Of a stretch of 64,000 nucleotides of DNA, positions 58,836-64,000 are shown piece by piece. Source of the DNA: Luteibacter aegosomaticola (GTDB lineage Bacteria > Pseudomonadota > Gammaproteobacteria > Xanthomonadales > Rhodanobacteraceae). The stretch spans positions 3,224,001 to 3,288,000 of the forward strand of contig NZ_CP095741.1 of assembly GCF_023078475.1 (NCBI RefSeq). Direction: 5' to 3'. The number at the start of each line of letters is the position of its first letter. Position 1 is the stretch's first letter. The notes beneath the pieces were generated by a model. It searched no databases, had not been told where the DNA came from, and was given only the letters and a program-made list of their open reading frames with translations. Position numbers and translations under genes: made by a program.

Positions 58836-59528
58836 TCAACGAATGTGTTCACGGGCGTGGCGGCGCGCGCCGGAGGCGAACGTGCCGGGCACGGGTGCGG
58901 GCACCTCGGCCACGCGGGGCCGCAAGGGTACAGCCGCCGGGCGTTTTTTGCGCGCCACGAGGAGGTAACCGCCGCCGATGAGCGATTCGCCCATGGTGGC
59001 GCCACCGGCGCGCGGCCAGGCGCTGCCCAGCCGGCGCGGCATCGATAGTTCGAAATCGTCGCGGACCAGGCGCTGGCTCCACCACCACGGCCAGGTCAGG
59101 CGCGGGCGGGTGCCACGGGATTGCCGCGCCACCCAGGGCGACCACAAGCCAAGGGGATGGATGCCGGTAATGGCGATCATGCCGCCGGGCTCGAGGACCC
59201 GGATGGCCTCGTCAAGCAGGTTGTCCTGGCGGGCGGTCGTTTCCAGCGCATGGCGCAGCAAGACCACCCCGAAGGCCTCATCGGTGAAAGGCAGCGGCTC
59301 GAGGCCGCTCCCCAGCACATCCCCCTCCAGACGGGCTCCGGTGACGCGTACCGTCGCCCAGTGGCCCAGGAGCGGAATCGCCGGCGCCTCGGCGCCCAGT
59401 GCGGCCGTCAGGTGCAAACCATGGTCGCCCGTGCAGCGGTTGAGCAAGGGGGCGAGCACACGGTTTTCGTCCGCAATCAGCTTGCGGAGGTGGGGCGTCG
59501 CATAGATGTCGGAGACGAGGCCAGCCAT
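58836..59528 (-). CDS. SAM-dependent methyltransferase (YafS-like position)
   Basis: The 230-residue protein has a methyltransferase type-11 core: motif I is degenerate ([18 protein letters not shown]), but [20 protein letters not shown] and [14 protein letters not shown] are typical. It sits between gloB and rnhA-dnaQ, exactly where E. coli has yafS. The C-terminal 30 residues are proline/arginine-rich and variable. Substrate unknown. Confidence 0.85.
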
Positions 59529-60463: not shown

Positions 60464-61722
60464 ACGTATTGGTCCGACGGCTTTTGCCGACTCTTATGCC
60501 GTTGCTGCTTACCGCGTGCGCCGGAACGACGCCTCGTCCGTCCGCACCGATGGCCCCGCCGCCCGCACCGACCACCGTCGATACGGTGGAGAACGTGAAT
60601 ATGTCACCCAAGCTGGCGCGCCCCGCGCAGCCGGCGGATTTCTGGGGTGACATGCGCGACAGCTTCGCCATGCCGGGCTGCGAGGCCGATCCGCAGGTGA
60701 TGGCGTGGGCCCATACCTACACGCGCATGCCCAATCGTTTCGAGCAGCAGGTGAATGAAGTACTGCCGCTCATCGTGTACGCACACAAGTCGGCGATGAA
60801 GCACAGCGTCGCGGGTGAATTCGCCCTGCTGCCGTGGGTGGAAAGCCAGTACCGCCACGTGCCCGGCGTCAAAAACCGCCCGGCCGGCATGTGGCAGATC
60901 ATGCCGCAAACCGCACGCACGCTCGGCCTGCGCGTGGACAAGAATTACGACGAACGCCTGGACATCACCAAGTCCACCGAGTCGGTCATGTCGATGATGC
61001 GCCGTTATTACGACGATCTCGGCGACTGGCGCCTGGTGGATGTCGCCTACAACGCGGGCGAATTCGGGCTGAAGAAGACGATCGACAAGCACGGCGGCCC
61101 GACGGATGACGACGGCCTGCCCGATGTGCCGATGAAGGCGAATACCCGGGAACACCTGGTCAAGCTGATGGCCATGGCTTGCATCATCCGCGACCCGGCC
61201 CGCTTCAATGTCCAGTTACCGAAGCAGGATCGTGATGACGCCTTGCAGGTCGTGAAAGTGGATAGCCCGCAATCGCTTGCCCAGGCCGCGAAACAGTCGG
61301 GCTTGTCGATGAACGACCTGCGCGACTTCAATCCGGCCTTCCGCACGACGAAGGGCACGATCACCAACACCCTGCTGCTGCCGAAGTCAGCTGCGGACCA
61401 GTACAACCTCGGACCGGTCGATCCGGTCGCTGATGTGCCTGCCGCCGCCGATGACGTGGCGGACGCTGCGCCAGCGAAGGCAACCAAGGCATCGAAGAAG
61501 TCGAAATCGGTAGCCAAGGCCAGCACCACCAAGGGCAAGGCCAAAGCGGTAACGAAGGGCGACGATGCAAAGCTCATCGCCTACAAGGTGAATAACGGCG
61601 AATCGCTGTGGACCATCGCGCGCCGGCACCAGGTGAGCGTCGAGCAGATCATGAAGTGGAACGATCTCGACACCGCGGCGGTCAAGCCCGGCCAGGTACT
61701 CAAGCTCACCGCCTCGCGCTAA
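60460..61722 (+). CDS. mltD: membrane-bound lytic transglycosylase D
   Basis: MltD cleaves peptidoglycan glycan strands. The 420-residue protein has a lipoprotein signal (lipobox LTAC, C20), a proline-rich linker, the SLT domain with catalytic E128 (LPWVESQYRH, then AGMWQIMPQTARTLGL), one divergent LysM around 255-310 and a canonical C-terminal LysM (about 373-418, YKVNNGESLWTIARRHQV). An Ala/Lys-rich linker separates the LysM repeats. The order gloB-mltD follows E. coli in mirrored form. A 9-bp stem-loop lies 12 bp past the stop. Confidence 0.96.
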   Translation: MNVLVRRLLPTLMPLLLTACAGTTPRPSAPMAPPPAPTTVDTVENVNMSPKLARPAQPADFWGDMRDSFAMPGCEADPQVMAWAHTYTRMPNRFEQQVNEVLPLIVYAHKSAMKHSVAGEFALLPWVESQYRHVPGVKNRPAGMWQIMPQTARTLGLRVDKNYDERLDITKSTESVMSMMRRYYDDLGDWRLVDVAYNAGEFGLKKTIDKHGGPTDDDGLPDVPMKANTREHLVKLMAMACIIRDPARFNVQLPKQDRDDALQVVKVDSPQSLAQAAKQSGLSMNDLRDFNPAFRTTKGTITNTLLLPKSAADQYNLGPVDPVADVPAAADDVADAAPAKATKASKKSKSVAKASTTKGKAKAVTKGDDAKLIAYKVNNGESLWTIARRHQVSVEQIMKWNDLDTAAVKPGQVLKLTASR

Positions 61723-61734
61723 AGCAGCTGCTGT

Positions 61735-61759
61735 GTGCATCAGACTTGGGCTGATGCAC
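61735..61759 (+). terminator. stem-loop after mltD
   Basis: A 9-bp perfect stem (GTGCATCAG / CTGATGCAC, 61735-61743 and 61751-61759) with a 7-base loop follows the mltD stop. No T tract follows, so it may be a factor-dependent terminator or a 3' stabiliser; it separates mltD from the peptide gene downstream. Confidence 0.5.
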
Positions 61760-61885
61760 CACCCTCCTTCGCCTACGCGCCTTCATGGCGTGCGCCCACA
61801 TACGCATACGGCCAGCTCACGCATCCTTTCCTGGCGCTAGAGGACTTTCCCTCTGGTGCATAACCCTCAGAAAAGGAGCAGAACC

Positions 61886-62029
61886 ATGGGTCAGGACTTG
61901 CCGCGCTTTGTGCACTTCGAAGCCGAATCGTATGCCGTCGACTACCCGGCATCGGGCCAGGTGAAGCCAGCAACGCCGAAGGTGGAGCAGCTCACCGATG
62001 TGGAACTCAACGCCGTCACCGGTGACTGA
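61886..62029 (+). CDS. 47-residue RiPP-precursor-like peptide
   Basis: AAGGAG lies 6 bases before the ATG. The product is an acidic 47-residue peptide: MGQDLPRFVHFEAESYAVDY, then a Pro/Ser/Gly/Ala stretch, then VEQLTDVELNAVTGD. The last 13 residues match the E-L-x-x-V-x-G-(G/A) end of NHLP/bacteriocin-type leader peptides. Directly after GD comes the stop, so there is no classical core peptide. There is no cysteine; serines are at 15 and 23, threonines at 30, 37 and 45. It lies 53 bp upstream of a YcaO gene. I think it is the substrate or recognition peptide of that enzyme; an alternative is a regulatory or immunity peptide. Confidence 0.75.
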   Translation: MGQDLPRFVHFEAESYAVDYPASGQVKPATPKVEQLTDVELNAVTGD

Positions 62030-62035
62030 GTGACT

Positions 62036-62060
62036 GCAGGGGCGGCACGCCCGCCCCTGC
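62036..62060 (+). promoter_or_regulatory. strong stem-loop between the peptide and ycaO genes
   Basis: A perfect 10-bp G/C stem (GCAGGGGCGG / CCGCCCCTGC, 62036-62045 and 62051-62060) with a CACGC loop begins 7 bp after the peptide stop and ends 22 bp before the ycaO start, just ahead of its AAGGAAG ribosome binding site. It has no T tract. It would stabilise the peptide mRNA and lower YcaO output, the usual precursor-to-enzyme ratio in RiPP loci. Confidence 0.6.
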
Positions 62061-62082
62061 TTGCTCGCAAGGAAGCACGACC

Positions 62083-63261
62083 ATGATTCCGTTCGAACGG
62101 GACGTCCCCATCGCCGATGCGATGGCACGCGTCGCTGACACCATTCATCGCCATGGCCTGCACGCCGTCTCCGCCACCTTCGGCGACGCGCTATGCACGG
62201 TCGAGGTCGAATTGCGCCGCGCCGACGGCACGACCGTCGCGACGGGGCACGGCAAGGGCAACCCGACCACCGCGAGGGTCGGGGCCATGTTTGAAGCGCT
62301 GGAACACTACCTAAGCCTGTTCCATCCCGAGGCGTTCCGCTGCACCCCCATCCCCGTGGATGCCGTGTGCGAAGGCCTGGGAGAAGGGATCGATGCCCTG
62401 CTACGTGCACAGGCAGGGCGCGCCGTGGGGTGCCGCATGTATCGGCATCTTATCGATGGCACAGCGGCCTACATACCGCTTGCGTTGGCGCAACCGCGCT
62501 ACGTTCGCCAGGCACACCCGCGCGACACGTTCGATTACCACGGCCTGGAGCGCTATGCCTCCAACAGCGGTACGGCGATTGGCTCGACAGATGCCGAGGC
62601 CAGCTTGCACGCGATTAATGAATGCATCGAACGTGATGATGTCTCTCGCTGGCTCCATGCCCACTTCCACACCCTGAGCGATGCGCCGCTGCGTCTCGTT
62701 GCACGCGCGACATGCGATGCGGCCATGGAATACGCGTGGCGAGCTGCCGAAGCCGCTCTCGACGATGACATCATCCTGGTGGATGTCGGACGGCATGCGG
62801 GGACCACGAGCCGAATGGCGTTCTCGGCGCATTGGCCTCATGACGTGCATCTGTACGGCGCAGGAAGCTCGATGTGCCCCGCGCACGCGAGCGAGCGCGC
62901 ACTGGCGGAACTGGTGCAACAAGCGATTCGCTCAAAGGGCACGCCGCTCATGGACGCCTATGCGCAACAGGTGGTGGCGCGCGTGGAAGCCTGGCCCCGC
63001 CTTGCGCGCGCCTGCCGGGCAGACCTGCCGCTACGGCTACGTGATGCTGCTGTTATTCAGGTGGGCGCCGGGGAAAGGCTCGCCTGGCAAGCGCCTGCGG
63101 TCATGCTGCAACAGACGACGGCCGCACTGGCCGCCGAGGGCTACGCGCCTATGGCCTGCATGATCCCCACGGGTGGAGAGGTGTCGCTATGCAGCGTCAT
63201 CATCCCTGGGTTCTCACGTTACTACCTGGTGGGCAATGGCATCCCCGTGGCGCCCCACTAG
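62083..63261 (+). CDS. stand-alone YcaO-domain protein
   Basis: YcaO enzymes use ATP to activate a peptide backbone amide and form azoline, thioamide or amidine groups. The 392-residue protein carries the three ATP-site blocks: GKGNPTTARVGAMFEALEHY (57-76, with E71/E74), SNSGTAIGSTDAEASLHAIN then ECIERDD (160-186, E180/E183) and ASERALAELVQQAIR (269-283, E276/Q280). The C-terminus is GNGIPVAPH and lacks the PxPxP tail typical of azoline-forming cyclodehydratases. AAGGAAG precedes the ATG. No E1-like, TfuA or dehydrogenase gene is adjacent; the only partner seen is the 47-residue peptide. The chemistry cannot be predicted safely. Confidence 0.9.
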   Translation: MIPFERDVPIADAMARVADTIHRHGLHAVSATFGDALCTVEVELRRADGTTVATGHGKGNPTTARVGAMFEALEHYLSLFHPEAFRCTPIPVDAVCEGLGEGIDALLRAQAGRAVGCRMYRHLIDGTAAYIPLALAQPRYVRQAHPRDTFDYHGLERYASNSGTAIGSTDAEASLHAINECIERDDVSRWLHAHFHTLSDAPLRLVARATCDAAMEYAWRAAEAALDDDIILVDVGRHAGTTSRMAFSAHWPHDVHLYGAGSSMCPAHASERALAELVQQAIRSKGTPLMDAYAQQVVARVEAWPRLARACRADLPLRLRDAAVIQVGAGERLAWQAPAVMLQQTTAALAAEGYAPMACMIPTGGEVSLCSVIIPGFSRYYLVGNGIPVAPH

Positions 63262-63269
63262 GGCGCCAC
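63247..63269 (+). terminator. stem-loop spanning the ycaO stop codon
   Basis: A 9-bp perfect stem (GTGGCGCCC / GGGCGCCAC, 63247-63255 and 63261-63269) holds most of the TAG stop (63259-63261) in its loop. It lies between the convergent ycaO and fabV genes. No T tract follows. Confidence 0.55.
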
Positions 63270-63296
63270 GGATAACACCGCTTATCGTGGTACGGC

Positions 63297-64000
63297 TTAC
63301 AGCTGCACGACATCCCACTCTTGTACGTCGGGCGAGATGTCTTTGTCGTAATCCACGCCCTTGGCTTCGAAGCCAAAGAGCTTGATGAACTCGTGCTTGT
63401 AGCCGGCGTAGTCGGTCTCAGCGAACAGGTTCGCCGTGGTCACCTTCGGCCAGAGGGCCTTGCACTCGGCCTGCACATCGTCGCGCAGCTCCCAGTCGTC
63501 CAGACGCACGCGGCCTTCCGGATCGGTCTCGGCCGGCTTGCCATCGGTACGGTAGAGGCGATCGTGGAACAGACGGTTGATCTGCTCGATGCAGCCTTCG
63601 TGGAGGCCCTTGGCCTTCATGATCTTGAAGACCATGGAGACATAGAGCGGAATCACCGGAATGGCGGAGCTGGCCTGCGTCACGACCGACTTCAGCACGC
63701 CCACGTACGAGCGCAGGTGGAGACCCGCATGGCGTGCGCCCAGTTCGTGCGCCGTACGCTCAAGGTGCTCCTTGGCGAGGCCCAGGGTGCCACGACGGTA
63801 CATGGGCCACGTCGTCTCCGTGCCGATGTAGCTGTACGCGATGGTCGTGGCGTGGTCGGCGAGCACACCCGCCTTCGCCAGCGCGTCGATCCACAGCGCC
63901 CAATCCTCGCCACCCATGACGGTGACGGTGTCTTTCTTTTCCTGCTCGGTGGCGGGCTCGACCGTGGCTTCGACCACTTCGTTCTTGTTGGTGTCGACCG
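63297..64000 (-). CDS. fabV: trans-2-enoyl-ACP reductase FabV (N-terminal part beyond window)
   Basis: The minus-strand frame is open from the stop at 63297 to the end of the window, giving about 234 C-terminal residues of a roughly 400-residue protein. The FabV active site is present: the tyrosine and lysine of Y-x8-K in [21 protein letters not shown], a spacing longer than in FabI. Further conserved parts are [19 protein letters not shown] and the C-terminal [15 protein letters not shown]. FabV performs the last step of fatty acid elongation and is insensitive to triclosan. It is not linked to the fab cluster at 33-37 kb. Confidence 0.94.

Follow-up and report, generated by a model that had tools for sequence, protein, structure and literature searches.

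Does the small gene that precedes a stand-alone YcaO gene in Luteibacter aegosomaticola encode the substrate of that enzyme, and which reaction would the enzyme carry out on it? We analysed the pair in a stretch of 64,000 nucleotides (the window), whose positions are used throughout. A sequence-only reading had described a 47-codon gene with a strong ribosome binding site, followed after 53 bp by a YcaO gene, and these coordinates proved right: the ATG lies at 61886, the stop codon ends at 62029 (47 codons plus stop), and a spacer of 53 nt (62030–62082) separates it from ycaO (62083–63261). The features of the locus are as follows.

61871–61878, + strand: ribosome binding site AAAAGGAG of the peptide gene (sequence).
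61886–62029, + strand: probable precursor peptide gene, 47 aa, MGQDLPRFVHFEAESYAVDYPASGQVKPATPKVEQLTDVELNAVTGD (sequence; positional homologues).
61889–61921, + strand: putative N-terminal core region from Gly2 (Gly2 conservation; right edge guessed).
61991–62026, + strand: putative follower (recognition) block LTDVELNAVTGD (follower profile built without own-family peptides).
62036–62060, + strand: 10-bp hairpin in the spacer between the peptide gene and ycaO, likely an attenuator (folding z −2.61).
62069–62075, + strand: ribosome binding site AAGGAAG of ycaO (sequence).
62083–63261, + strand: stand-alone YcaO enzyme, 392 aa, BtmF-type (Pfam, family HMM, signature residues, predicted structure).
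61723–63296 (approximate borders), no strand: extra DNA between mltD and fabV (comparison with sister genomes).

The hairpin, a second copy of the system elsewhere in this genome and the empty mltD-fabV site in sister genomes go beyond the sequence-only reading. A Pfam scan of the four flanking ORFs of the window identified a GloB ORF and an SLT/LysM (mltD-like) ORF upstream of the pair and fabV on the opposite strand downstream. No RiPP gene, RRE or transporter was found among the four, in agreement with the earlier statement that none is adjacent. A Methyltransf_11 ORF (34 bits, cut-off 21.2) is present at 58839–59528 on the minus strand, 2.4 kb upstream of the pair and past gloB; it is non-adjacent and probably unrelated.

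To judge the small gene, we used 68 loci of the YcaO subfamily (63 further loci from a genome scan, the window, the second copy and three relatives). A fixed rule (ATG-GGN start, SD, 28–80 aa, not more than 450 nt upstream of the YcaO gene) was satisfied at 57 of the 68 loci, compared with 6 of 419 other long ORFs found there and 53 of 3400 shuffled upstream regions. When residue 2 was ignored in choosing the ORF, 60 loci had an upstream ORF with an SD, and Gly2 was present in 54 of these 60, against 3 of 209 other ORFs having an ATG and an SD. Three of the six exceptions lacked Gly2 (L047, L049, and L060), a longer in-frame start had been taken in two (L030 and L045), and in the sixth, the second copy in the genome of the window, an overlapping ORF had been taken. 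Inspection for Met-Gly, with GTG starts and longer distances allowed, gave an upstream peptide at 62 of the 68 loci; since Met-Gly was the criterion for these peptides, their Gly2 (62/62) is no evidence, and the value of 54/60 is. An upstream Gly2 peptide was missing at L047, L049, L052, L055, L057, and L060. Among these, L055 has a GTG-Gly peptide downstream of the YcaO gene, the small ORFs of L047 and L049 end like a follower and have a residue other than Gly at position 2, and no such peptide ORF was found at the L052, L057, and L060 loci. A small ORF is thus conserved upstream of the YcaO gene in most relatives, and on this point the sequence-only reading is supported.

Held-out plasmid records had a Met-Gly ORF upstream in 8 of the 8 fetched (out of 9 distinct matches; Gloeothece H12 was not among them), under a looser rule without a control of its own (ATG or GTG, SD not required, 500 nt). 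One Pantoea/Acinetobacter peptide recurs in three of these eight records, and six distinct peptides are represented. In the gene tables of seven plasmid stretches, the small ORF is entered as a hypothetical protein three times and is absent four times, which supports the remark that the gene is easily missed by annotation; PLSDB gene tables are incomplete, and the original records may list more small ORFs. The window peptide used as a protein query matched only itself, and conservation is therefore shown by position and not by sequence search. It had no match in Pfam or NCBIfam.

The pooled dN/dS values, which were measured in relatives and not for the window peptide and left out pairs with pS over 0.6, were 0.24 (37 pairs) and 0.27 (12 pairs) for two classes from Pseudomonas, 0.05 in Yersinia (6 pairs), and 0.44 in Nonomuraea (9 pairs); one further pair gave 0.56. 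These values (0.05–0.44 in the four groups) indicate that the peptide gene of the relatives is under purifying selection, on which the sequence-only reading had made its proposal depend. In both Pseudomonas classes the ends of the peptide vary less than the middle. This was not so in Yersinia and Nonomuraea, and the C-terminal part of the Nonomuraea peptides is more variable than the middle.

The N-terminal stretches of the peptides are class-specific (MGYMxSWNANK in Pseudomonas, MGILGLLPNK in Yersinia, MGNVVDYV in Nonomuraea, and MGxRRSEI in Pseudomonas/Butyrivibrio). The C-terminal part is acidic, with 27% D/E past residue 15 compared with 6% in the first 12 residues, and contains L[TS]xxExxxL or a close variant. 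This motif was counted in 57 of 59 distinct peptides, from which it had itself been drawn, and independent follower profiles are the fairer tests. Against the profile built without own-family peptides, the score of the window peptide was reached by 738 of 20000 shuffles, a modest match for a peptide that is an outlier in its class. The score of the bottromycin precursor against a profile that excluded it was reached by 51 of 20000 shuffles, and two of the five held-out plasmid peptides scored, both from Vibrio, do not fit the follower profile. The C-terminal motif had been called leader-type, which did not hold: no residues follow LTDVELNAVTGD, and the other end that is conserved is the N-terminus, so that this block is better read as a follower, with a putative N-terminal core as in bottromycin. 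A double-glycine leader was considered and dropped because no core follows the motif. The earlier view of the unit as a peptide with its stand-alone enzyme is supported, with the role assigned to the motif and the completeness of the pair corrected, and we hold with considerable confidence that the two genes are a RiPP precursor with an N-terminal core and the enzyme that acts on it.

The window YcaO matched PF02624 with 72.2 bits (cut-off 25.7) and belongs to the YcaO superfamily. The NCBIfam SagD, YcaO-kinase and McrA-thioamidation models all scored below their cut-offs for this protein, the SagD/TOMM model TIGR03604 giving 37.6 bits against a cut-off of 219.25. The predicted structure is a single YcaO domain with a mean pLDDT of 95.7. 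Its nearest PDB folds are archaeal YcaOs (best), E. coli YcaO and cyclodehydratases, and the best PDB sequence-profile match gave 91 bits. E71, E74, E180, E183, R272, and E276 do not vary among 48 relatives; we take these columns to be the ATP site, and the fold resembles that of an AMPPCP-bound YcaO (match to 6cib), in line with the earlier statement that the ATP-site residues are intact.

Reference bottromycin clusters were obtained with the precursor model NF033414, which matched 2 of 392 genomes in a second sample and none of the 394 actinomycete genomes in the first. Both clusters read precursor, YcaO in the BtmE position, YcaO in the BtmF position; the assignment (L164/L165) rests on the lettering of the paper, the reported btmD-btmE terminator and the observed gene order. 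The family HMM (63 members) gave 245.5 and 245.0 bits for the YcaOs in the BtmF position and 61 and 52 bits for those in the BtmE position, compared with 48, 39, 34, and 5 bits for PxPxP YcaOs and 29 and 19 bits for canonical YcaO; this model was built on sequences collected for their similarity to the query, and its scores therefore favour its centre. An HMM of the 36 gammaproteobacterial members only gave 209 and 205 bits for BtmF and 51 bits or less for the others. Partial or disrupted YcaOs (L059, L068, L072, L073, and L074) were left out of the trees and the family HMM. The window YcaO as a query matched BtmF with an E value of 5e-27 over 415 aa and BtmE with 7e-9, and BtmF was the best match for the window protein and for six others tested. 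H75, S188, and S263 are common to the family and BtmF and occur in none of the eight other references; Phe at column 380 is likewise restricted to the family and BtmF, and the window protein has Tyr there. In the tree, BtmF and the thiazoline former BtmE are both on the family's side (99/99), with a long BtmE branch, and the tree alone therefore does not single out BtmF. As judged from the sequence comparisons, the window YcaO is a relative of the macroamidine-forming BtmF. The description of the system as undescribed has to be qualified to this extent and otherwise holds: no account of this peptide/YcaO family was found in the open-access literature searched, and papers behind a subscription may already describe some of it.

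BtmF is reported to be needed for the bottromycin macroamidine together with the amidohydrolase BtmI, and in the proposed reaction Gly1 attacks the amide that joins residues 4 and 5 (PMC5103208). Given the same branch of enzyme, a freed Gly and a similar follower, the reaction here is most likely the formation of an N-terminal amidine, and on balance we regard an N-terminal amidine as the probable product. In the proposed pathway, the small gene would supply a precursor whose core lies at the N-terminus and whose C-terminal follower comprises about the last 12–17 residues. Host methionine aminopeptidase would take off Met1 to expose the Gly2 amine, and the YcaO would bind the follower without an E1-like or RRE partner and, with ATP, activate an amide of the backbone a few residues towards the C-terminus. 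The freed Gly2 amine would then attack the activated amide to close an N-terminal amidine ring, a step suggested by the kinship with BtmF and by the conserved Gly. The hairpin between the genes would lower expression of ycaO relative to the precursor, and host or unlinked proteases and exporters would complete the pathway here; in relatives, a methyltransferase, a hydrolase or an ABC transporter is encoded in addition. The N-terminal sequence MGP is described as poorly cut by host aminopeptidases, the peptidase of the bottromycin cluster doing this job (PMC5103208); no Pro at residue 3 was found among the 59 distinct peptides, which fits the absence of a dedicated peptidase gene here.

The system shares with bottromycin the Met-Gly N-terminus, a putative N-terminal core with a C-terminal follower containing the L[TS]xxExxxL block, a stand-alone YcaO nearest BtmF, and a hairpin after the precursor gene. 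It differs in having one YcaO and no thiazoline former, whereas bottromycin clusters have two YcaOs, and in consisting of two genes rather than thirteen. No BtmI-like amidohydrolase, and no radical-SAM methyltransferase, P450 or M17 peptidase of the bottromycin type, was found among the four flanking ORFs scanned, and NF033414 matched 0 of 39 family peptides. The single YcaO, the lack of a precursor-model match and the lack of adjacent tailoring genes indicate that the system is not bottromycin. We think it reasonably probable that the pair represents an undescribed, minimal bottromycin-like RiPP pathway in which the YcaO closes an N-terminal amidine ring.

Streptamidine (ami) likewise has an N-terminal amidine made by a YcaO, and its peptides are described as lacking Ser/Thr/Cys-rich regions; unlike the present system, it is reported to require AmiB (predicted RRE/E1-like), a hydrolase, a dehydrogenase and Fec-type transporters, and to have a YcaO with a proline-rich C-terminus and a leader (PMC8442711). 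A streptamidine-type system was considered for the window and dropped, as the ami-type partner is absent among the flanking ORFs scanned. In klebsazolicin, an N-terminal amidine is also closed by a YcaO (PMC8442711, PMC7136475). Klebsazolicin differs in being a linear azole peptide with an E1-like partner, a dehydrogenase and an N-terminal leader.

The YcaO might instead form an oxazoline or thiazoline at a Ser, Thr or Cys of the peptide. No reaction of RiPP YcaOs is commoner than azoline formation, the thiazoline former BtmE is also on the family's side of the tree, the relatives of the RSEI type retain Ser at residue 6, and a SagB-type dehydrogenase adjoins the YcaO in a Streptomyces plasmid relative. 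However, the C-terminal PxPxP typical of azoline formers is missing in 67 of 68 family YcaOs (the sole match, L059, is a shortened ORF), there is no C, S or T in the first 8 residues of 27 of the 59 distinct peptides, 52 of 59 have no Cys at all, and no E1-like partner was found among the flanking ORFs scanned. The conserved Gly2 is also left unexplained, and we consider azoline formation unlikely.

Slightly less likely again is thioamidation, either of the backbone of the peptide, in the manner of TfuA-linked YcaOs, or of a cellular protein, in the manner of E. coli YcaO and uL16. Archaeal YcaOs, the best fold matches in the PDB, are thioamide formers. E. coli YcaO is reported to thioamidate uL16 without an RRE and, in contrast to the enzymes studied here, to have no nearby small ORF and an extra TPR domain (PMC13063428). 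TfuA was not found in 10 of the 11 genomes searched, including that of the window, and in the eleventh it was beside a different YcaO; it was not found in the E. coli of the control set either, and TfuA is thus not always required and its absence is no disproof. Against thioamidation, canonical YcaO scored 29 and 19 bits with the family model, the linked peptide speaks against a protein substrate, and Gly2 would have no explanation.

The spacer between the two genes bears both on the proposed pathway and on a third alternative. The folding z was below −2 in 31 of 43 spacers and below −1 in 39 of 43 (mean −2.53), and gammaproteobacterial spacers were below −2 in 30 of 39. Control 63-nt stretches before other ORFs were below −2 in 9 of 150 cases, with a mean of 0.01. 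The test took spacers of 30–130 nt, leaving out 18 loci outside this range and L063, and each spacer ended at the start of the match, so that a few coding bases were included in some loci. The stems vary in sequence, yet their position is constant. Sigma-70 promoter and terminator scans of 61600–63400 and an Rfam scan of 61000–64000 gave no match and the window hairpin has no long T run, which indicates that it is no textbook terminator. Folding of the bottromycin loci gave a hairpin likewise after the precursor gene, where transcript levels are reported to drop and a putative terminator has been placed between btmD and btmE (PMC7113386). A sensible reading is that the hairpin likely keeps the precursor in excess of the enzyme.

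The small ORF could alternatively be a regulatory leader peptide whose ribosomes control the hairpin and hence ycaO, the substrate of the YcaO being elsewhere. The placement of a hairpin between the ORF and ycaO, with z below −2 in most spacers, is consistent with this. Regulatory leader peptides are conserved for regulatory codons, whereas Gly2 and an acidic C-terminal block are what is kept across three phyla here. In addition, the peptide persists at three actinobacterial loci (L040, L043, and L062) whose spacer of 10–28 nt is too short for the hairpin, and the bottromycin small gene, with its equally placed hairpin, is a real precursor; a purely regulatory role is accordingly improbable. 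Least probable of all is ATP-dependent cleavage of the peptide by the YcaO, for instance where the core meets the follower. Such cleavage is reported for MusD (7u58, title "YcaO-mediated ATP-dependent peptidase activity"), which matches the window enzyme by sequence profile and by fold, and it would explain removal of the follower without a protease gene in the pair. Against it, the MusD matches are weaker than those to several other YcaOs and Gly2 is again unexplained. Cleavage might also accompany amidine formation as an additional activity instead of competing with it.

The function of most stand-alone actinobacterial YcaO proteins has been called obscure (PMC8442711). For one widespread YcaO branch, formation of an N-terminal amidine offers a testable proposal in which the substrate is the adjacent peptide, the reacting group is the Gly2 amine, and the recognition end is the C-terminus. 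If it is true, two genes can suffice for an amidine-forming pathway, a set readily expressed in E. coli, and the macroamidine step of bottromycin becomes approachable apart from the rest of its cluster. The case also illustrates how the substrate of a RiPP pathway escapes annotation.

Accessory genes were common in relatives. A methyltransferase was present at 24 of the 68 loci (directly downstream of the YcaO in 22), an alpha/beta hydrolase, prolyl-iminopeptidase-like by eye, at 16, a NACHT-type ATPase at 10, and an ABC transporter directly downstream of the YcaO at 7. At the Yersinia and Stenotrophomonas loci and at both copies in the genome of the window, none of these four types directly follows the YcaO; in two of the Yersinia loci, the opposite strand carries an ABC gene. 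The assertion that the unit is complete as a pair is thus supported by the bare loci of Yersinia, Stenotrophomonas and the second copy, and weakened by the accessory genes at many of the 68 loci. A defence role was considered and dropped: PADLOC gave no match for the window YcaO, and its matches in relatives, for the methyltransferase (mad2, 41 bits) and the ABC protein (mad3, 83 bits), are read as generic domain matches. In the linked methyltransferase at L028 (9209–10168), the class I SAM domain is preceded by about 155–170 residues to which Pfam assigns no domain, and in the Streptomyces plasmid relative (L154, 3066–6255) the YcaO is followed by an annotated SagB family peptide dehydrogenase.

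The NACHT-type ATPase directly follows the YcaO at ten Streptosporangiaceae loci (L030, L035, L037, L039, L040, L041, L043, L045, L051, and L062), the domain being shown for L043. It is possible that this pairing links a modified peptide to a STAND-type sensor, and the ATPase of these ten actinobacterial loci could sense the ringed peptide. Separately, the core MG[RKN][RK]RSEI[NHS] is nearly unchanged across Lachnospiraceae, Pseudomonas and Vibrio (L063, L064, L066–L072, and L074, and plasmids L157–L159), and the Pseudomonas and Vibrio loci of this type have an ABC transporter gene after the YcaO. Near-invariant cores between phyla (Pseudomonas, Vibrio, Butyrivibrio) are as expected of signals or metallophores and not of arms-race antibiotics. 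A more speculative suggestion, which we put forward as doubtful, is that the Met-Gly peptides and BtmF-type YcaOs form one large undescribed class of N-terminal lactamidine RiPPs, with the two-gene form ancestral and bottromycin an elaborated actinobacterial offshoot.

The second copy in the same genome (L011; G000:C1:1340514-1341689) has a YcaO 43% identical to that of the window and its own Met-Gly peptide, MGLYMCYCHHLPDDEALDHLDAAANPQLSRIELAELDEE; a distance of 1.9 Mb separates the two YcaO genes, and each is paired with a separate peptide gene. The YcaO was present in 3 of 23 genomes of the genus, that of the window included (a 36-bit match over 124 aa in a fourth, G200, was left out as a relative), and in 4 of 197 genomes drawn from the host family. 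No YcaO relative was found in the viral contigs searched. In 19 sister genomes in which mltD and fabV are neighbours, the distance between the matches, stop codons included, was 12–122 nt in 14 and 522–941 nt in 5, compared with 1580 in the window. The GC content of the insert is 64.5%, near the 64.7% of the window. The occurrence among genomes and the gap sizes indicate that the gene pair is a patchy, inserted unit.

The second copy adjoins an M13-peptidase-like gene, as do, by eye, the copies in G123 and G133, and this common neighbour suggests that the site of the second copy may be the older one. The mltD-fabV gap is a variable site: of the five longer gaps, four were read (L096, L097, L107, and L108), and by eye those of G089 and G178 contain a fabI-like gene and those of G193 and G199 contain repeats, while the window has the pair at this place.
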